64,000 bases of DNA, from positions 1 to 64,000 of the forward strand of contig NZ_JAAORH010000001.1 in assembly GCF_017696085.1 (NCBI RefSeq), given 5' to 3'. The DNA comes from Prochlorococcus marinus XMU1410. Lineage in GTDB: Bacteria > Cyanobacteriota > Cyanobacteriia > PCC-6307 > Cyanobiaceae. Under the pieces are notes generated by a model. The model was not told the origin of the DNA, did not search any database, and worked only from the letters and a program-made list of their open reading frames with translations. Positions 36,461 to 59,259 of this stretch are shown one piece after another; position 1 is the stretch's first letter, and each line of letters opens with the position of its first letter. The translations under genes and the position numbers were made by a program.

Positions 36461-37174
36461 ATGCCCGATACTATTAAATTAAGTCGAACTACAGTTGAGA
36501 AATATCTTAGTTGTCCAAGATGTTGTGTACTTGACAAAAAATATCAAATAAAACCGCCATCATTACCATTTACCTTAAATATAGCTGTAGATAATTTATG
36601 TAAAAATGAATTTGATTACTATAGAAAAATTCAGGAGCCGCATCCTTTATTTATTGAATATGGAATTGATGCCGTACCTTTCAAACACAAATATTTAGAA
36701 CGTTGGAGAAGTAATTTTCAAGGGATAAGATTTAAGTCAACTGAACATAACTATGATTTTGGTGGAGCTGTAGATGATATTTGGCAGAAAAAAAATGGTC
36801 ATCTTATTATTGTTGATGTAAAAGCAACATCTAGAAATAATTTTGATTGGTTTGAGACTTTTGATAAATACGAATATGCAAAAGCTTATAAAAGACAGTT
36901 AGAAATGTACCAGTGGTTGTTTAAGAAAAACGGTTTTCAAGTGGCTAAAGAAGCTTATCTTTTATATTTCAATGGCAAGAAAAATGAAGAGTTTTTTAAT
37001 AACCAATTAAATTTTGACGTACATCTAATTAAATTAGATTGTTCTACTTCATGGGTAGAAAATAAGATAATTGATACGGTTAATTTATTACGTTCGGATA
37101 ATTTCCCCAAACCTTCCTTAAATTGTGAATACTGTAATTATTTAAAGAAGCGTTGGCAGTTGTCAATAACTTAA
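36461..37174 (+). CDS. Stand-alone PD-(D/E)XK nuclease, Cas4/RecB-like with paired cysteines
   Basis: The 237-residue protein has the layout of Cas4/AddB-type iron-sulfur nucleases. An N-terminal SRTTVEKYLSCPRCCVLDKKY carries C18, C21 and C22. A nuclease core follows with GGAVDDIW (D105/D106) and LIIVDVKAT (D119, K121). A QLEMYQW helix (Q146, Y150) comes next, and a C-terminal C222-x2-C225 pair ends the protein. In that family the cysteines bracket the nuclease and bind a [4Fe-4S] cluster; that this one does is inference. No cas gene or CRISPR array is nearby, so a DNA repair or recombination role is more likely than CRISPR adaptation. Confidence 0.8.
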   Translation: MPDTIKLSRTTVEKYLSCPRCCVLDKKYQIKPPSLPFTLNIAVDNLCKNEFDYYRKIQEPHPLFIEYGIDAVPFKHKYLERWRSNFQGIRFKSTEHNYDFGGAVDDIWQKKNGHLIIVDVKATSRNNFDWFETFDKYEYAKAYKRQLEMYQWLFKKNGFQVAKEAYLLYFNGKKNEEFFNNQLNFDVHLIKLDCSTSWVENKIIDTVNLLRSDNFPKPSLNCEYCNYLKKRWQLSIT

Positions 37175-42299: not shown

Positions 42300-44075
42300 C
42301 TAATAGTGATTAGCAACTTTTCTGTGATGAACTGCTGTCTTACATGATAAGTCAGAAACATTACCATTTTCAACAATTCCGTAAATTATCCAATGGTCTG
42401 GAGTCTCCAGTCTTGAACTGACTTTACAATCTAAAAAGGCGAGTGAATCTGAGAGAACAGGTCCTCCTTCAGCGATGTTGCTAATTACATCTACATCCGC
42501 AAATCTATCAGCTCCAGGGGCAAACCTTTTTAAAAAATGTCTGAACATTTTTTGATAGTTATCTTCTCTCAAGATATTCACAACAAAACCTTTACCAACT
42601 TGCATATATGATTCAATAGCTCTATCTTTTGCTACTGCAACTGTAATACCTGGTGGAGAAAAGCTTGCTTGACTAACCCAACTTGCGACCATTGCACTTC
42701 GTCTAAATGTCGAACCTTCCCCTTGACTAGCTGTTACTACATATAATCCTCCACTTAATCTACCTAACGCTTTATCTAAATTTGAATCAAGGCTCTTCAT
42801 AGAGGCAATATTCTTCTTTTTATTGATCAATTGACCCAAATCAGTTCCAGCTTCTTCGAATTGTTGATAAACAATCGGATCTGGAATATTTTTAACTCTT
42901 AATGGAGAGAAAGCTTCTTTTTGACCAAGTTCTCTTAATTTATTTGCTAAGGAATCTATAGGTTCATCATTTCCACCAAATGCATCATAAACTGCAGTAA
43001 ATTGTTTTGGCTTTAGTGCTGCAAATAAAGTACCGAGAGATTCTTTTAATTCATTATCTGAGTCTACAGGCCATGTGGGAATGACTACTGCTTTTGATTC
43101 GGAAATTAAACTTGTTAATTCTTGCGGGTCAGAAGATCTTAGATCAATTAACTGAACCTGAGCATCTGCTTTGCTTATTCCATGAGATATCGCTTGACTG
43201 AGTCGATCACAATAACCATAGTCGCTTATGTAGCAGACTGACACAAAATCATTGCCTTTGCTTTTATTGCTACTCCATTCTAGATATTTTCCTTTCCAAA
43301 AATTGACCTGATTATGGAGCAAAGGCCCATGACCCACAGCTATTGTTTTTAATTCAGGTAGCTTATCTATTCTTTTAATTGCCTGCATAACGCTTCTAGC
43401 ATTTGGACCCATAAGGCAATCGTAATAAAAACGGAAATCATCGTATATTTCTTTTTGATCAGTGTCAAAAAATTCGTCAGAACAATAATGTAGTCCAAAA
43501 GCATCGCATGTATAGAGAACATTTGTGCTGTGATCATATGAAAATATGGTATCTGGCCAATGCAAATTTGGTGCACTTATGAATTCAATATTATGTTCTA
43601 AACCACTATTAGGATTAGTTCCGAGATTTAAAAACTCTCCGCTCTTAACCTCTAGACGTTTAAAGGGAATATGTATTTGGTCTTCAATAAATTTAAGTGC
43701 TAATTTTGATCCAACTACTGTGATATTTTGGTTTAATTCTAAAAGATTACCTATTAAACCAGAATGATCAGGTTCTGTATGGCTAGTAATTAGATAATCA
43801 ACTTCTTGCGGATTGACCTTTTTCAGTAATTCTTCAAACCATAATTCTTCAAACTTTGCGTGACTAGTATCAATGATTGCTAGTTTCTCGCCTTTAATAA
43901 TAAAACTATTGTAAGTAGTTCCATTTCTTAAACCAAATTCAATATCAAATCTACTGCGATCCCAATCCAAAGATCTTATGGCACAAGAATCATCAGCAAA
44001 GTTTTGAGATTGAACCGTCAACTTGTTATTAGTTTGTGCCAATTTAGAATTACTTGTTTGGGCAGAGGCTATCAT
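42300..44075 (-). CDS. Flavodiiron protein, Flv3-type with canonical diiron site
   Basis: This 591-residue protein has the same three domains as its neighbour and intact metal ligands: SHTEPDHSG, APNLHWPD, YTCDAFG and AVGHGP. Flv1/Flv3 heterodimers reduce O2 to water downstream of photosystem I and protect against fluctuating light. The flavodoxin domain (VCYISDYGYCDRLSQAISHG) and the C-terminal flavin reductase domain are complete. It is first in the flv-flv-FMN reductase unit and divergent from alaS. Confidence 0.94.
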   Translation of the reverse strand: MIASAQTSNSKLAQTNNKLTVQSQNFADDSCAIRSLDWDRSRFDIEFGLRNGTTYNSFIIKGEKLAIIDTSHAKFEELWFEELLKKVNPQEVDYLITSHTEPDHSGLIGNLLELNQNITVVGSKLALKFIEDQIHIPFKRLEVKSGEFLNLGTNPNSGLEHNIEFISAPNLHWPDTIFSYDHSTNVLYTCDAFGLHYCSDEFFDTDQKEIYDDFRFYYDCLMGPNARSVMQAIKRIDKLPELKTIAVGHGPLLHNQVNFWKGKYLEWSSNKSKGNDFVSVCYISDYGYCDRLSQAISHGISKADAQVQLIDLRSSDPQELTSLISESKAVVIPTWPVDSDNELKESLGTLFAALKPKQFTAVYDAFGGNDEPIDSLANKLRELGQKEAFSPLRVKNIPDPIVYQQFEEAGTDLGQLINKKKNIASMKSLDSNLDKALGRLSGGLYVVTASQGEGSTFRRSAMVASWVSQASFSPPGITVAVAKDRAIESYMQVGKGFVVNILREDNYQKMFRHFLKRFAPGADRFADVDVISNIAEGGPVLSDSLAFLDCKVSSRLETPDHWIIYGIVENGNVSDLSCKTAVHHRKVANHY

Positions 44076-52729: not shown

Positions 52730-53968
52730 TTGAGCCAGTTAGATTCCAATTGGTCGTTTGTTGATGACAGTAAGGTAACACCCAAGGGGTTTCTTTTTGC
52801 TGGGATATCTGCTGGTTTAAAAGCTTCTAATAAAAAAGATTTAGCACTAATACTCGCTCCAGAAGGAAGTATTTTTAGTGGGATGTTTACCCAATCAATT
52901 GTTCGAGCTTCTTGTGTGGATATTTGTGAGGAAAGGATTAAAAAAACTTCAGGTTTTGTAAGAGCAATATTAATTAATTCTGGTCAAGCAAATGCATGTA
53001 CAGGAAATCTTGGCATTCAACATTTTCAAATTGCTACAGGAAAGATTGCGGAACTTTTAGGAATAAAAGAAGAAGAAGTTTTAATGTGCTCAACTGGTGT
53101 AATTGGTGTTCCAATACAAATAAATGATTTAGTAAAAAATTTACCGAATTTAGTTAGTGATTTAAAGGGTAATAATTTTGCAAATGCAGCAGAAGCAATT
53201 TTAACTACTGATTTGACTTTGAAAAAAGTTTCAATAGAGACGATTATTCAAGGTAGAAAAATAAAAATAGCAGGATTTGCAAAAGGTTCAGGAATGATAT
53301 ATCCCAATATGGCTACAATGCTTGCTTTTCTAACCTGTGATGCGGGTATTCAAAAAGAAGAATGGGACAAAATGATTGCTATTGCGGTTCAAAAATCTTT
53401 TAATGCAATATCAGTTGATGGAGAGACAAGCACAAATGATTCTTTTGTTGGAATAAATGCAGGAGAGAAAATTAAAAAAAGGTTTTTTCCAATTATCCAA
53501 CAAGGGATTGATATTGTATGTCAGAACTTGGCAAAAAATATTGCAAGGGATGGAGAGGGAGCAAATTGTTTATTAGAAGTTTTGGTTCAAGGAGCAAAAA
53601 ATAAAGATGATGCAATTATGCTCGCGAAATCTATTTGTAATTCTGCTTTGGTAAAAACTGCGATACATGGTTGTGATCCAAATTGGGGACGAATCATTTC
53701 TGCTGCAGGTAATTCTGGAGTTAAATTTAATTTAAATGACGTTGACTTGTATATAGGAAACGCTCACATTTTGGAAAAAGGCAAGTTAAATAAATATGAT
53801 CCACAAAAAGTCACAGACTATATTAAGTCCAGAATGAAAGGTAGATATTTGGTAGATGATATTGTAAAAATTATGATTAATCTAAATTCTGGCGAATCAA
53901 AAGGCACAGCTTGGGGGTGCGATCTTTCTAAAAAATATGTTGAAATAAACTCTGAATATACTACATAG
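52730..53968 (+). CDS. argJ: Bifunctional glutamate N-acetyltransferase / ornithine acetyltransferase
   Basis: ArgJ recycles the acetyl group between acetylornithine and glutamate in arginine synthesis. The protein starts with TTG (412 residues). It self-cleaves before the catalytic threonine T196 in MIYPNMATMLAF. The C-terminus ends with the conserved sequence KKYVEINSEYTT. The last nine residues plus stop (53939-53968) reappear in frame at 56647-56676, after the two surface-anchor genes; see the separate entry. Confidence 0.96.
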   Translation: MSQLDSNWSFVDDSKVTPKGFLFAGISAGLKASNKKDLALILAPEGSIFSGMFTQSIVRASCVDICEERIKKTSGFVRAILINSGQANACTGNLGIQHFQIATGKIAELLGIKEEEVLMCSTGVIGVPIQINDLVKNLPNLVSDLKGNNFANAAEAILTTDLTLKKVSIETIIQGRKIKIAGFAKGSGMIYPNMATMLAFLTCDAGIQKEEWDKMIAIAVQKSFNAISVDGETSTNDSFVGINAGEKIKKRFFPIIQQGIDIVCQNLAKNIARDGEGANCLLEVLVQGAKNKDDAIMLAKSICNSALVKTAIHGCDPNWGRIISAAGNSGVKFNLNDVDLYIGNAHILEKGKLNKYDPQKVTDYIKSRMKGRYLVDDIVKIMINLNSGESKGTAWGCDLSKKYVEINSEYTT

Positions 53969-54079
53969 TCTGAGATCGATTGTGCTGCAGTAGAAGTCAG
54001 GGAATACTAAAACGATATGACACTAATATGACAGTAGATTTCAACTAATTTATTAATTTTAAAAAGTTTATATAAAATT

Positions 54080-55021
54080 TTATTTAAGTTTATAGATTGC
54101 TAAATCTTTTGACTTAATTTCCTTAAGTGCAAATTTTTCAAGTCTTTCTAATCTTGATATAAGTTGCTTATTTTTTTCCTCAAGAGATTCAATTTTGTTC
54201 TTGAAATTTTCTTTCTCTTTCATACTGATTTGAGTTGGTTTTATGGCCTTACCTAATTTCCATACAAATCCTGCTCGTGCAGAAAAAGTATCTTCAAAAT
54301 CTCCTGCATAATCTTGACCAGGCATAGTCATAGACGCCGCATAATTAATTGATAGTTTTTCATTTAATTTTGAGGCACAACCTCCAGAAAAAGCAAAATC
54401 CCCTCCGTGAGTTCCAGTCCCCAAACCGCAAGCAAGACTAGTTTCAGTAGGAACAGTTGGTAAACCTGTTAGGGCAGCACTTAATGCTCCAACATTATTA
54501 ATTGATTGCTCAACATCTCTTCCGTTAATTAATAATTTACTTCCATTTGTGATGTTTATAGGTGCAATTCTTCCTTGTGAGTCCGTTGCCCACATTTTCA
54601 TTTCTTTTGAAGTTTCTTGTAATTTGAGTGAGTTTTGACCAACACTTATCACATTTGAGTTAGCAAACATACTTTGTTTTTGCAAAACTAGAGGAGAACC
54701 AGGAAATATATCATCAGTAATTGTTCTCCAGGTATCTGATTTCCAATCGTATGCGTGGTGATTAGAATCTGCAGTTCCAGTTAAAATTAGTTCTCCTGTA
54801 GATGGACTAACGAAAGAATTCATACCAGCACCATTTGCACCAAGGTCTTTTTCAGTTAATAGGGTTTTAGTGTTAGTACTTAGATCAATCCCATATACCT
54901 TTGTTAAAGTTTCGTTTTCATCCGGAGGACTCTCTATGGAGAAAATATCAAATGCATAAAGAGGACTTAAAGATACTGAACTAAAAAAACTCAGCAAAAC
55001 CGCTCTAAACAAATTTTTCAT
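54080..55021 (-). CDS. Exported protein with YadA-like anchor domain and coiled-coil tail (paralogue A)
   Basis: The 313-residue protein has a signal peptide (about residues 1-23). An N-terminal region follows with propeller-like strands (VYGIDLSTNTKTLL, GELILTGTADSN, YDWKSDTW). Residues 158-258 resemble the YadA/Hia C-terminal membrane anchor: SINNVGALSAALTGLP, then alternating strands ending FSARAGFVWKLGK. Two cysteines in this domain (LACGLG, SGGCAS) are unusual. A 55-residue tail follows with heptad-like EKNKQLISRLERLEKF. Outer-membrane trimer formation is inferred from the family. The neighbouring gene 55161-56339 is a paralogue with an almost identical anchor. Confidence 0.8.
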   Translation of the reverse strand: MKNLFRAVLLSFFSSVSLSPLYAFDIFSIESPPDENETLTKVYGIDLSTNTKTLLTEKDLGANGAGMNSFVSPSTGELILTGTADSNHHAYDWKSDTWRTITDDIFPGSPLVLQKQSMFANSNVISVGQNSLKLQETSKEMKMWATDSQGRIAPINITNGSKLLINGRDVEQSINNVGALSAALTGLPTVPTETSLACGLGTGTHGGDFAFSGGCASKLNEKLSINYAASMTMPGQDYAGDFEDTFSARAGFVWKLGKAIKPTQISMKEKENFKNKIESLEEKNKQLISRLERLEKFALKEIKSKDLAIYKLK

Positions 55022-55160
55022 TATAAAAATTATATTTACCCAGTTTTATCAATTAAATATTTTAAAAACTTATATTTTGCCGAATTTCACTAATTATAAA
55101 AGTCTCAATTTAACTTCTATTGTTATTACCTCGTGCAAGGTGATTATTATTTCTACTCAA

Positions 55161-56339
55161 TTATGGCAATTTTATAGTTGCTAAATCTGTTGATTTTGAG
55201 GTATCAAGTGCAATTTTTTCTAATCGTTCGAGTCTTTCTAGAAGTGCTTTATTTTGAGCAATAATGTTTTTATTATTTGCTTTAAGATCACTAATTTCTT
55301 CTTTCAATTCTTCTTTTTCTTTCACACTTATCATAGAAGGTTTTGATGATTTACCTAATTTCCATATAAACCCTGCTCTCGCAGAAAACTTATCTTCAAA
55401 ATCACCTGCGTAATCTTGACCTGGCATAGTCATTGATGCGGCATAGTTAATTGATAATTTTTCATTAACTTTAGAAGCACAACCTCCAGAAAAAGCAAAA
55501 TCGCCCCCATGAGTCCCAGTTCCTAAACCGCAGGCGAGAGTTGTGTCATTAGGAACTTTTGGTAGTCCAGTTAAAGCAGCACTCAATGCTCCAACATTAT
55601 TAATAGATTGCTCTACATCTCTGCCATTTATAAGTAATTTGGTTCCGTTGGTGTAATCAATAGGAATTGAATTTCCTGCTGCATCTTTTGCCCAAACTTT
55701 TTGTTTTCCATTTTCTTCTTTGGTAATCCAAGAGTTTTTACCAATATGTAATTCTCCATTTGCTTTTTTGCTAATTAATGGTTCTCCATCAATGGATACT
55801 CCCTCTGCTGTTATATCAATATCATTTACATCATCACCTATTTGAACGGATCCATCTAAGTTTTTTTTAAGTATCGTATTACCTCCAATTTCTATATCGA
55901 ATGATCCATCTGAATTACCATTAACTGACGGTATATCAAAATTAATATCATAACTTGATTCAGATTTGTCTCTCTCATAAGTCGATGTAGTAAAGGAATT
56001 ATTTTTTATATCGTAAATAAATTTGTTATTACTTGTTGAAGATTTAAAGTGCATTTTCCCATTAATAGAGTCATAAAAAGATTTGTTGATGTCAATTTTG
56101 TCTTTTTTCCAATCATTTTCAGTATTGAAATCTGATTGTTCTGCTTGAATTAATGAACCTACACCTTCATAATTACCTGTTATTGAATTCCATTTTTGAA
56201 TATCTATTGTGTATGTGTTATTAATTCCATCACGACTTATAAAATTGTTGGCATTAATACCCCACTTGTCGTATTCGGATAAGACGGGCATCCCAAAAAT
56301 AGTTGAGCTTAAAAATAATAAACCTATAGTGTTTTTCAT
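55161..56339 (-). CDS. Exported protein with YadA-like anchor domain and coiled-coil tail (paralogue B)
   Basis: The 392-residue protein has a short signal peptide (residues 1-18). A divergent N-terminal part follows with the same YxID...sG-h...YDhK pattern as paralogue A, at greater length. An inserted Asp/Gly-rich stretch (about residues 130-215; GDDVNDIDITAEGVSIDGEP) has head-like beta repeats. The anchor spans residues 230-330 and differs from that of paralogue A at only eight of 101 positions. A 62-residue coiled-coil tail ends the chain. It is probably a surface-exposed or periplasm-spanning structural protein, function unknown. Confidence 0.8.
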   Translation of the reverse strand: MKNTIGLLFLSSTIFGMPVLSEYDKWGINANNFISRDGINNTYTIDIQKWNSITGNYEGVGSLIQAEQSDFNTENDWKKDKIDINKSFYDSINGKMHFKSSTSNNKFIYDIKNNSFTTSTYERDKSESSYDINFDIPSVNGNSDGSFDIEIGGNTILKKNLDGSVQIGDDVNDIDITAEGVSIDGEPLISKKANGELHIGKNSWITKEENGKQKVWAKDAAGNSIPIDYTNGTKLLINGRDVEQSINNVGALSAALTGLPKVPNDTTLACGLGTGTHGGDFAFSGGCASKVNEKLSINYAASMTMPGQDYAGDFEDKFSARAGFIWKLGKSSKPSMISVKEKEELKEEISDLKANNKNIIAQNKALLERLERLEKIALDTSKSTDLATIKLP

Positions 56340-56646
56340 AGTTTTTTCAAAACTGATTATTAATTTTTTTATAGCATTTATTATCCTGGATTATTAAAAA
56401 TAGTCGCTAGGAAATTCCCATCCCCCCTCTCAGAGCTGAATACTCACCATTGGTAGAAATGTAATTATTCTGTGATTACGCTTAAGATCACAGAAATTAA
56501 TCCCAATTATTTCAATGGTTTTTATTTAACAATCTAAAACTGTGATTATTATTTTGCCGACTGTGATTATGGTGTGATTATTTTCTAAAAATTCACTTAA
56601 GTGATAGCAATGGATTACAGCAAGGTGGATATACTAAATGCCAAAG
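56340..56646. other. Non-coding stretch upstream of paralogue B
   Basis: About 300 bases without a convincing gene. It holds the TGTGATTA repeat cluster (56470-56580), a C-rich patch near 56420-56436 and, near its right end, the sequence leading into the argJ-tail copy. The 11-base word TATTTTGCCGA at 56550-56560 also occurs upstream of paralogue A at 55073-55083. The stretch is the presumed promoter region of paralogue B, which is read leftwards. Confidence 0.7.
56470..56580. repeat. TGTGATTA repeat cluster with a perfect inverted repeat
   Basis: TGTGATTA occurs on the + strand at 56471, 56541, 56562 and 56573. The first copy is part of a perfect inverted repeat: CTGTGAT (56470-56476), ten spacer bases, ATCACAG (56487-56493). 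The array lies 130-240 bases upstream of paralogue B. It may be an operator array for a dimeric regulator or binding sites for a partition or recombination protein. The spacing is not that of a CRP site (TGTGA-N6-TCACA). Confidence 0.8.
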
Positions 56647-56676
56647 GTGGAAATTAATAGCGAATATACTACTTAA
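56647..56676 (+). pseudogene. Second copy of the argJ 3' end (fragment)
   Basis: Ten codons here read VEINSEYTT then TAA, identical in protein to the last nine residues of argJ (53939-53968) and in the same orientation. Of 30 bases 22 agree; every difference is silent, including a Ser codon switch TCT/AGC and a different stop codon. The core GAATATACTAC is identical. No argJ homology is evident upstream of it in this frame, where a stop at 56635-56637 is followed by ATGCCAAAG. It overlaps the last eight bases of the small membrane protein gene on the other strand. Confidence 0.65.
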
Positions 56677-56914
56677 GTTTTAGTAAATCTAATGGTAGAT
56701 ATTCATTAATAAAGAGAAACAGTATTGTTAAAGTTCCAATTACAGAGCCTATAAAACCTCCAAAAAAATTAACTAATAATCCAGATTGTCTAATTATTGC
56801 TTCTTCTTTTTTTTCTTCTTCTTCAAAATTAGAAGAATCAACTACTTTTAAGCGCTTATTGGTTGTTGGTTGTTTAAGTTGTTGGTGTCGGATGAGGGCT
56901 TCGAAATCAGGCAT
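56669..56914 (-). CDS. Small membrane protein overlapping the ParA-like gene
   Basis: Start chosen at the ATG at 56914 (MPDFEALIRHQQLKQPTTNK), giving 81 residues; an ATG at 56938 adds eight. The first 40 residues are hydrophilic with an acidic EEEEKKEE patch. A single membrane segment with a glycine zipper-like run (NFFGGFIGSVIGTLTILFLF) spans about residues 49-70. It overlaps the 3' end of the ParA-like gene by 67 bases in another frame, implying coupled translation. The function is unknown; membrane tethering of the ATPase partner is a possibility. Confidence 0.65.
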   Translation of the reverse strand: MPDFEALIRHQQLKQPTTNKRLKVVDSSNFEEEEKKEEAIIRQSGLLVNFFGGFIGSVIGTLTILFLFINEYLPLDLLKLK

Positions 56915-57519
56915 GGAATTTGTGAGGCAATTGAACAATAAGCAGACCAGCCCGTCATTCGACGAGGATCTGATCTGCCTAAATCGTCTACAGCTTCAAA
57001 TACAGCATTGCCAGAGGCTTCTGCTTTATCAAATGCTGAGAGTAAGGGTATAAATGTATCAAAAACATATAAACCAAAATTTTTTAGAGCTGCTTTGGCT
57101 TGTTGCGCTGCTTTTTGCTGTCTAAAATCAACTTTTACTATTACTACAGCATGGTTAACTTTTAAGTTGCTTAATAAATTAGCTAGTTCAACAGTTAATT
57201 CTACTGATCTTGCTTTTGCAGTTGTAGGCAAGATAACTAAATCTGAACCATACGCTAAGTGTTTAAGTTCTTCTTGATCACTGCTAGCCTGGCCATCAGT
57301 TATTACAATTTCTGATGATCTTGATGCTTTAGCAGCTGAACTGACGGGGAAAACTGGAAATGGAAGATTGCCTCTTGATGCGTATGCTAAAGCAGATCTA
57401 TTCTTGTCGGCATCGACTATGCAAACTTTTTTACCTTCAGAATGCCAAACACTTGCAAGGTGAATACTTGTACAGGTCTTGGCAACCCCCCCTTTTTGTC
57501 CGCAAACGGTAATGAACAA
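56848..57519 (-). CDS. Orphan ParA/MinD-type ATPase
   Basis: The 223-residue protein has the deviant Walker A motif with signature lysine, KGGVAKTCTSIHLA (near residue 9), the switch I region VDADKNRSALAYA, and VITDGQASSDQEELKHLA. This is the ParA/Soj family used for DNA or protein-complex positioning. The usual DxPP in the second motif is replaced by TDGQAS. There is no parB gene beside it, so it is unlikely to be a standard chromosome partition pair. Partners may include the small membrane protein that overlaps its 3' end. Confidence 0.88.
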   Translation of the reverse strand: MFITVCGQKGGVAKTCTSIHLASVWHSEGKKVCIVDADKNRSALAYASRGNLPFPVFPVSSAAKASRSSEIVITDGQASSDQEELKHLAYGSDLVILPTTAKARSVELTVELANLLSNLKVNHAVVIVKVDFRQQKAAQQAKAALKNFGLYVFDTFIPLLSAFDKAEASGNAVFEAVDDLGRSDPRRMTGWSAYCSIASQIPCLISKPSSDTNNLNNQQPISA

Positions 57520-58778: not shown

Positions 58779-58931
58779 TTTGCAAGATTGGATTTCTTAA
58801 TAAGATAAATTAATTTAAAACTTATCTTCTCAGTATTTATACTTATAAAATTAAAAAAATTCTTTTTAATACAAGTAATTGCAGCAATATTTACACACTC
58901 ATAAATTATCTACTACAACTTCTTAGTTATT

Positions 58932-58958
58932 TAAAAAAGTGGAGTCCTTTCAGACTCC
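58932..58958 (-). terminator. Intrinsic terminator of tmRNA
   Basis: On the minus strand GGAGTC-TGAAAG-GACTCC forms a six-pair GC-rich stem with a six-base loop (58941-58958). It is followed by AC and then a T run (58932-58938). It lies at the downstream end of the coding piece of tmRNA. Confidence 0.85.
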
Positions 58959-59210
58959 TCGTATCATTTGGTTGATAAGGCTGATATAACCCCATCTCCT
59001 TTTGGATCAAGCAGCAACTGGTGCTGTTTGACGGGAGAAACTAACGATTTTGTTAGCATTTGTGTTTTTGCTCTAACCGAGCCGGCTTCAGTCACCTTCC
59101 TTATGCTCCGTCGAAACCATTACAACCCCAAATAGTGGAGTTGAGCGGAATCGAACCGCTGTCCGAAACATCGGTTGAGATCACCTAGTCCAATTGGACA
59201 TTTATATTCT
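58941..59210 (-). ncRNA. ssrA: Circularly permuted two-piece tmRNA
   Basis: Read on the minus strand, the acceptor piece comes first. The T arm GGACAGCGGTTCGATTCCGC is followed by CAACTCCA, ending at 59136. After only six intervening bases (59135-59130) comes the 5' end of the coding piece, GGGGTTGTAATGG, from 59129. GGGGTTG pairs with CAACTCC as the seven-pair acceptor stem. The tag frame (59057-59007) encodes ANKIVSFSRQTAPVAA followed by TGA, a tag I recognise as Prochlorococcus-type. tmRNA rescues stalled ribosomes and tags the peptide for proteolysis. The 5' end of the acceptor piece is estimated. Confidence 0.95.
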
Positions 59211-59259
59211 GACAGGCAAAATGGTTATTGAATAGTTTTTTTACTAAGTTTTATCGTAT

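Follow-up and report, generated by a model that had tools for sequence, protein, structure and literature searches.

The 3′ end of argJ as a probable attachment site for small gene cassettes in Prochlorococcus

Background

The route by which streamlined Prochlorococcus genomes acquire their flexible genes is not settled. At one locus of P. marinus XMU1410 the end of the housekeeping gene argJ is present twice, with two YadA-like genes between the copies. The locus lies in the window, i.e., the whole stretch of 64,000 nucleotides analysed here (contig NZ_JAAORH010000001.1, positions 1 to 64,000, forward strand). A first-pass annotation based on the letters of the window had proposed two origins for the repeat: integration of an element bringing a replacement gene end, or recombination with a divergent argJ neighbourhood. 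Comparison with relatives supports the former and reveals that the repeat is an integration scar at the 3′ end of argJ, which very probably serves as the attachment site for small cassettes moved by lambda-type tyrosine recombinases, probably in trans for the most part.

Results and discussion

The repeated tail of argJ

The peptide VEINSEYTT and a stop are encoded twice on one strand, at the end of argJ (53939-53968) and at 56647-56676. The two 30-mers are identical at 22 of 30 letters and have GAATATACTAC in common, and 8/8 differences are synonymous or replace one stop by another. The repeat had thus been described correctly in the first-pass annotation, in position, in its 22/30 letters and in its silent differences, as had the content between the tails, namely the two YadA-like genes and non-coding DNA. 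The core AATAGCGAATATAC occurs once in the window at up to 2 mismatches (56656-56669) and is weak evidence when taken alone, because 0.55 occurrences are expected by chance; chance is ruled out by the identity of all nine residues and the stop, and most of all by the recurrence in relatives. The features of the site in the window are as follows.

52730..53968, + strand: argJ, the target gene, its 3′ end being the proposed chromosomal attachment site (Pfam ArgJ, E 2.9e-129)
53948..53961, + strand: left junction core (attL), AACTCTGAATATAC, with the exchange zone at about 53948-53955 as judged by column comparison of junctions
53956..53968, + strand: element-supplied argJ end; the window's end, ACTACATAG, is absent from 47/47 empty sites
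56656..56669, + strand: right junction core (attR), AATAGCGAATATAC, a far-junction core as in relatives
56664..56676, + strand: displaced native argJ end, ending ACTACTTAA as in 44/47 empty sites
56669..56938, - strand: convergent small membrane-protein gene (right flank), the end of which overlaps or abuts the argJ end in empty sites
56848..57519, - strand: ParA-like gene, the conserved right-flank anchor, found beyond the site in relatives (Pfam CbiA, E 8.9e-13)

The second tail is preceded by the residues MPK, encoded by the left arm of the element, and is not a piece of a longer argJ remnant. It overlaps the 3′ end of the convergent membrane-protein gene (56669-56938), which matters because in insert-free relatives argJ itself lies against that gene. 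The joining of left arm and native tail also creates a frame of 12 codons, MPKVEINSEYTT plus stop (56638-56676, + strand), which recurs in three other loci (L038, L044 and L055).

Empty and occupied sites among relatives

A total of 122 loci were compared, consisting of 1) the window, 2) 75 of the 80 loci obtained by scanning genome contigs with ArgJ as the query (titled Prochlorococcus in 76 cases and uncultured Synechococcaceae in 4), 3) L131-L135, longer stretches replacing L092, L082, L088, L090 and L109, 4) L130, included for its integrase, and 5) L136-L175, representing 40 consecutive lower-identity genomes of the genus among the matches listed (argJ was present in 168/200 genomes); the sample is therefore not random. 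At 47 of the 122 loci the site was empty, with argJ and its single tail directly abutting the convergent membrane-protein gene, and at 67 it was occupied, with variable cargo parting the two genes; at the remaining 8 the right end was not reached. Both arrangements expected in the first-pass annotation, strains with a single tail against the membrane-protein gene and strains with other cargo between two tails, thus occur. In 56 of the 67 occupied loci, the core AATAGCGAATATAC (at most 3 mismatches) was located at the far junction, at the place of the native argJ end. The occupied loci held one, two, three or four cassettes in 40, 22, 4 and 1 cases, respectively, inner cores being found in 27/67. 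The 107 cassettes with both ends ranged from 154 to 9043 bp (median 1613 bp) and fell into 45 cargo groups.

These junctions can be set against a chance origin of the second copy, through either homologous exchange with a divergent argJ neighbourhood or duplication of the tail in place. Such an event agrees with the window taken by itself, since its two tails show silent differences and no others, just like a pair of argJ alleles. Among the relatives, on the contrary, precise junctions in 56/67 occupied loci enclose 45 groups of cargo among 107 cassettes, cargo is unrelated between strains, homology ends at the core, tandem arrays contain inner cores, and arm repeats (see below) are matched within cassettes. 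Recurrence at a single exact position has already refuted this explanation, which includes the second proposal of the first-pass annotation.

Origin of the two argJ ends and position of the exchange

In empty sites, argJ ended with ACTACTTAA in 44/47 cases and with ACTACTTGA in the remainder. Among the 75 occupied or open sites the ACTACTTAA ending was found in only 4, and 21 other endings were present; one of the 4 is L094, a locus with the right end not reached, which is probably empty as its sequence stops inside the membrane-protein gene at the distance seen in empty sites. Over the last five codons including the stop, these 75 sites differed from the empty consensus by 153 synonymous and 0 non-synonymous changes, a pattern indicating that a silent replacement is brought by the element and that the far junction holds the native end. 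For the window this means that the intact argJ ends in letters supplied by the element and that the second tail is the native end, since in letters and flank this tail is identical to empty sites. This reverses the origin given in the first-pass annotation, in which the second tail was ascribed to a diverged argJ.

The position of the exchange was examined by column-by-column comparison of 47 empty, 75 argJ-side, 40 inner and 66 far junctions. Columns to the left of the core were near-constant in empty and argJ-side sites and variable at inner and far junctions, whereas positions 15 and 18 were T in 47/47 empty and 64/66 far junctions and mixed on the argJ side. G at position 9 was found in 12/75 argJ-side and 10/40 inner sites, compared with 2/47 empty and 3/66 far sites, and Asn-Ser variants (positions 3-6) occurred on both sides. 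This pattern places the exchange zone within AATAGCGA, 7-8 bp covering the Asn-Ser-Glu codons, which is the usual size for tyrosine recombinases. The crossover core suggested earlier, GAATATACTAC, overlaps this zone with its left end, but the column analysis puts the rest of it outside.

Arm repeats

In 75 of the 102 cassettes of at least 400 bp, the left arm contained a 6-mer that recurs at a spacing of exactly 11 bp, while eight other repeat spacings were found in 0 to 8 of the 102 left arms. The left-arm word was also present in the cassette's own right arm in 61/75 distinct cases (permuted mean 26.4, maximum 41; 5000 permutations). Seven unit classes, TGTGAT, TAACAC, TGACAC, AAACAC, TACCAC, AAACCA and CTTAC, cover 67/102 cassettes and 35 fit none; the unit of the own class was found in the right arm of 52/67 (permuted mean 12.1, maximum 22; 2000 permutations). 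As the classes were named after inspection of the arms, the word test at 11-bp spacing repeats the matching without hand-made classes. For several classes the distance to the core was near-fixed, with 15/22 class A pairs at -94 and 10/11 TAACAC pairs at -73, and the class A pair was found 74 times within argJ intervals (246 kb) versus 0 in 1.21 Mb of flanks. The arms in the window are marked by two repeat pairs of different classes.

54018..54034, + strand: right-arm repeat pair TGACACTAATATGACAG, class B2 (TGACAC), the sole match of this pair in the window
56562..56578, + strand: left-arm repeat pair TGTGATTATGGTGTGAT, class A (TGTGAT), a pair absent from 1.21 Mb of flanks

The insert of the window

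The arms of the window's insert are mismatched, the right arm being of class TGACAC and the left arm of class TGTGAT. Its remaining features are listed below.

54080..55021, - strand: YadA-like gene 1, carried by the first cassette (without a Pfam hit; it shares 61% identity with gene 2)
55092..55139, no strand: scar of a lost inner junction, 48 nt long where L152 has 326 nt comprising the core and both arms
55161..56339, - strand: YadA-like gene 2, carried by the second cassette; it alone of the two passes the cut-off of Pfam YadA_anchor (score 23.3 bits against 22.7)

A guide to this arrangement is L152: its first YadA cassette has a right arm resembling that of the window, next comes a core at 1687, and a second YadA cassette closes with a left arm of class A. 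Identity between the window and L152 is 89% over 53921-54647 (flank and gene 1) and 90% over 56408-56676. The flanks of the scar align to L152 positions 1381-1463 and 1790-2027, and the 326 nt between them (1464-1789), which include the inner core, are replaced. Because L152 keeps the junction where the window has 48 nt, the insert is regarded as two fused cassettes from which the inner junction was deleted. Judging from its letters, this 2.7-kb composite, whose arms do not match, has probably lost the ability to move as a unit. No integrase is present in the insert, in agreement with the first-pass annotation, and in the window's genome neither a YadA relative outside the array nor a second copy of the left arm was found.

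Recombinases at the site and elsewhere in the genome

A recombinase profile was built from L092, L130 and L225 together with 20 relatives, of which one belongs to the genome of L132. In a search with this profile, a recognisable tyrosine recombinase was located inside 3/107 cassettes, which are not independent finds since the profile was built partly from the same elements or genome, and none of the other 365 reading frames scored to E 1; for other kinds of recombinases, the scan covered chosen cargo proteins. The element of L092 (L131 in its longer form) has a gene for a 468-amino-acid (aa) tyrosine recombinase directly behind argJ, and that of L130 encodes a 457-aa protein, with 58% identity between the two; they match the integrase family phrog_1 with E 2.4e-20 and 3.5e-19, respectively. 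Close relatives (at least 58% identity) were found in 2/266 genomes of the genus, both beside argJ, with distant matches in 8 others. A different recombinase, of 527 aa, is encoded in the 9-kb insert of L132. Both the L092/L131 and L130 elements carry class A pairs in both arms, matching the class of the window's left arm, and these two elements are the best helper candidates for cassettes of class A. Since only 3 of 107 cassettes hold a recombinase, two of them with the left-arm repeat type of the window, the cassettes are likely to move in trans.

Several searches with these proteins gave no match: both recombinases against the Protein Data Bank up to E 1, the 468-aa protein against NCBIfam, and the integrase against viral contigs and phage records. 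A single-sequence AlphaFold2 model of the 468-aa protein (mean predicted local distance difference test score, pLDDT, 37) was not used. As for other genes of these loci, L130 and L131 have resolvase-type serine recombinases smaller than Ccr size. L131 also encodes a 281-aa protein in its integrase element (L131:5115-5957, + strand) with no Pfam or PHROG match, in which an HxH motif noticed by eye might suggest an HUH-type nuclease. The argJ of L130 (L112:3037-4276, - strand) is split between two frames, by mutation or assembly error.

The scarcity of recombinases in the cassettes might also be explained by a fixed chromosomal enzyme acting on them at a distance, in the way that an integron integrase serves a remote array. 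The candidate is encoded beside cobO.

L225:1426-2595, - strand (C1:471891-473057 in the window's genome): 389-aa tyrosine recombinase beside cobO

It is the sole match to the Phage_integrase family over the cut-off in the window's genome, it is matched in 87/101 genomes of the genus and in 30/30 of those at least 90% complete, and most cassettes have no recombinase of their own. It is, however, likewise matched in 143/151 genomes of the family (a few of these matches being distant), including genera without a second argJ tail (14/19 loci); moreover, recognition of at least seven arm classes by a single protein is hard to envisage, and other elements have integrases right at argJ. Since its distribution does not follow the arrays, we keep this protein as a rival only and consider its action on the cassettes improbable.

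A somewhat better case, though still a doubtful one, can be made for cassettes as cargo modules or relics of larger tycheposon- or phage-satellite-like elements, perhaps borne by capsids or vesicles, that use argJ; such an origin would be compatible with movement in trans by integrases of same-site elements. Tycheposons are described in PMC10872708 as Prochlorococcus elements with a tyrosine recombinase, and L131 carries genes for a ParB-methyltransferase and a resolvase beside its integrase. The tycheposon sites reported there, however, are tRNA genes, no tRNA gene was found in the window, and the median cassette of 1613 bp lies below the 4-200 kb quoted for tycheposons. The lack of a match for the integrase in viral contigs and phage records also argues against a satellite-like origin.

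Proposed mechanism

The explanation we prefer, cassettes integrating at the end of argJ and moved mostly in trans, would operate as follows. Recombination within AATAGCGA would join the right arm of the element to argJ. On this arm the final codons and the stop of argJ are replaced silently, which leaves the ArgJ protein unchanged, and the native end of the gene is displaced to the far junction. Repeated integration gives rise to tandem arrays. Most cassettes are non-autonomous, consisting of core and arm repeats with no recognisable integrase, and are probably moved in trans by integrases of rarer same-site elements with matching arm repeats. The window holds a B2-type and an A-type YadA cassette turned into a 2.7-kb composite by deletion of the inner junction. 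Of this scheme, the sequences themselves show the site, the arrays, the replacement ends, the arm repeats and their matching, the elements with an integrase and the inner deletion, whereas the identity of the acting recombinase, excision, the vehicle of transfer and the present immobility of the composite are inferred from them.

Several observations weigh against this explanation. Regarding the junctions, 11/67 occupied loci have no far core at up to 3 mismatches; 5 of these (L066, L084, L096, L132 and L159) have an AAC-TCN codon variant at the far junction, and the remaining 6 are more strongly altered. Regarding the arms, 27/102 cassettes have no 11-bp repeat, and both integrase elements have their left-arm pairs at -223, -126 and -106, not at -94. 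Regarding the enzymes and the movement itself, the Pfam Phage_integrase scores of the 468-aa and 457-aa proteins are below the family cut-off, the three att strings searched for in viral contigs turned up no free attP, no excision or circular form of a cassette was observed, and 8 of 15 comparable cassette pairs are not more alike than their flanks, so that part of the cassette content appears to be inherited or older.

The remaining 7 of the 15 pairs are more alike than their flanks. Compared with a cassette of L167, identity is 92.6% for one of L139 and 91.8% for one of L041, while the flanks are 81.0% and 80.9% identical, respectively; as cassette identity exceeds that of the host flanks, transfer between lineages is needed.

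On a wider view, for and against which the chances appear evenly balanced, argJ would be a shared dock, at which a common core is used by several integrases, each reading its own 11-bp-spaced arm code (at least seven classes), and cassettes without an integrase form mobilisation groups served in trans by rare helpers. The same logic may apply at other gene ends, e.g., at the flavodiiron gene site at 42300. This is a likely second integration site at the end of a protein gene, located in the window at the 3′ end of a flavodiiron-type gene (42300-44075, - strand) and empty there. In L237-L239, a tyrosine-recombinase gene lies directly behind the flavodiiron-type gene; in L238 and L239 the flank known from the window comes after a degenerate copy of the flavodiiron-type gene's tail (9 and 10 mismatches of 30, respectively), and in L237 the right end of the site was not reached.

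Cargo and age of the site

Among the chosen proteins scanned, the cargo included genes for surface proteins as well as matches to families of helicases, restriction proteins and nucleases; defence against phages or alteration of the cell surface would be consistent with such a content. A cassette of L079 carries an unusual metabolic cargo with a CobA/CobO/BtuR domain (L079:7403-8515, - strand). Elsewhere in the window, a PD-(D/E)XK or Cas4-like protein (36461-37174, + strand) is 36% identical to argJ-array cargo of L050.

The argJ loci of other genera (n = 19) included three, L205, L210 and L220, with 3-4 downstream copies of their own tail (3-7 mismatches of 24) and two, L207 and L219, with one copy at 7 mismatches; in the other 14/19, no downstream copy better than 8 mismatches was found. 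Tail copies in some other genera suggest that the site is probably older than the genus and patchy in occurrence.

Comparison with known systems

Additive flexible genomic islands of Alteromonas and Methylophilaceae, as described in PMC10872708 and PMC4119200, are formed at tRNA genes by cassettes added behind repeats of the gene 3′ end. The argJ site resembles them in its gene 3′-end target, in serial cassettes present, absent or different between strains at a shared place (47 empty, 67 occupied), and in the separation of cassettes by copies of the target 3′ end (far core in 56/67, inner cores in 27/67). It differs in that argJ is protein-coding, the cassettes have a median of 1613 bp, and several arm classes share one core; no tRNA gene is present in the window, where only a permuted tmRNA (58916-59225, - strand) lies about 2.2 kb beyond the right junction. 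Tycheposons share with the argJ elements the host group and the carriage of cargo, and their tyrosine recombinase has a possible counterpart in 3/107 cassettes, though none in the window's insert. They use seven tRNA genes according to PMC10872708, whereas the units at argJ are much smaller and mostly without a recombinase. Likewise, P-SS2 and T7-like cyanophages are placed at tRNA-linked sites, not at argJ, in PMC2784084 and PMC8776855.

Integrons resemble the argJ site in having arrays of mostly integrase-less cassettes at one site; they differ in that no integrase lies beside the window's array and arm repeats appear to take the place of the attC arrangement. Recombinase-less elements and tandem composites exist among staphylococcal and enterococcal cassette chromosomes (SCC/ECC) as well, which use rlmH and the large serine recombinases CcrAB instead of argJ and tyrosine integrase families. 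As stated in PMC6222049, SCCmec/ECC elements dock in the 3′ region of the protein-coding rlmH with flanking direct repeats, and docking in a conserved protein-gene 3′ region with direct repeats is also what is seen at argJ.

The attP of lambda-type systems consists of a core and arm sites. The argJ cassettes have a core with a short exchange zone, AATAGCGA, and repeated arm words on both sides of it, the latter known at the level of sequence only. Most of these attP-like units lack an integrase, in contrast to the lambda type; putative cognate integrases are the 468-aa protein of L131 and the 457-aa protein of L130, both with class A arms.

A literature search, within the reach of which the main tycheposon paper did not fall, revealed no description of the argJ site. 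The kind of system is known, from additive cassette islands and from SCC-like docking in a gene end, whereas the argJ dock and several arm codes sharing one core look new, the main tycheposon paper aside.

Conclusions

At 67 of the 122 sampled loci, one precise place inside a housekeeping gene is occupied, which bears on how flexible genes enter streamlined Prochlorococcus genomes. Because the letters of the junctions distinguish empty from occupied sites, occupancy can be counted in metagenomes, and the arm codes would predict which integrase moves which cassette.

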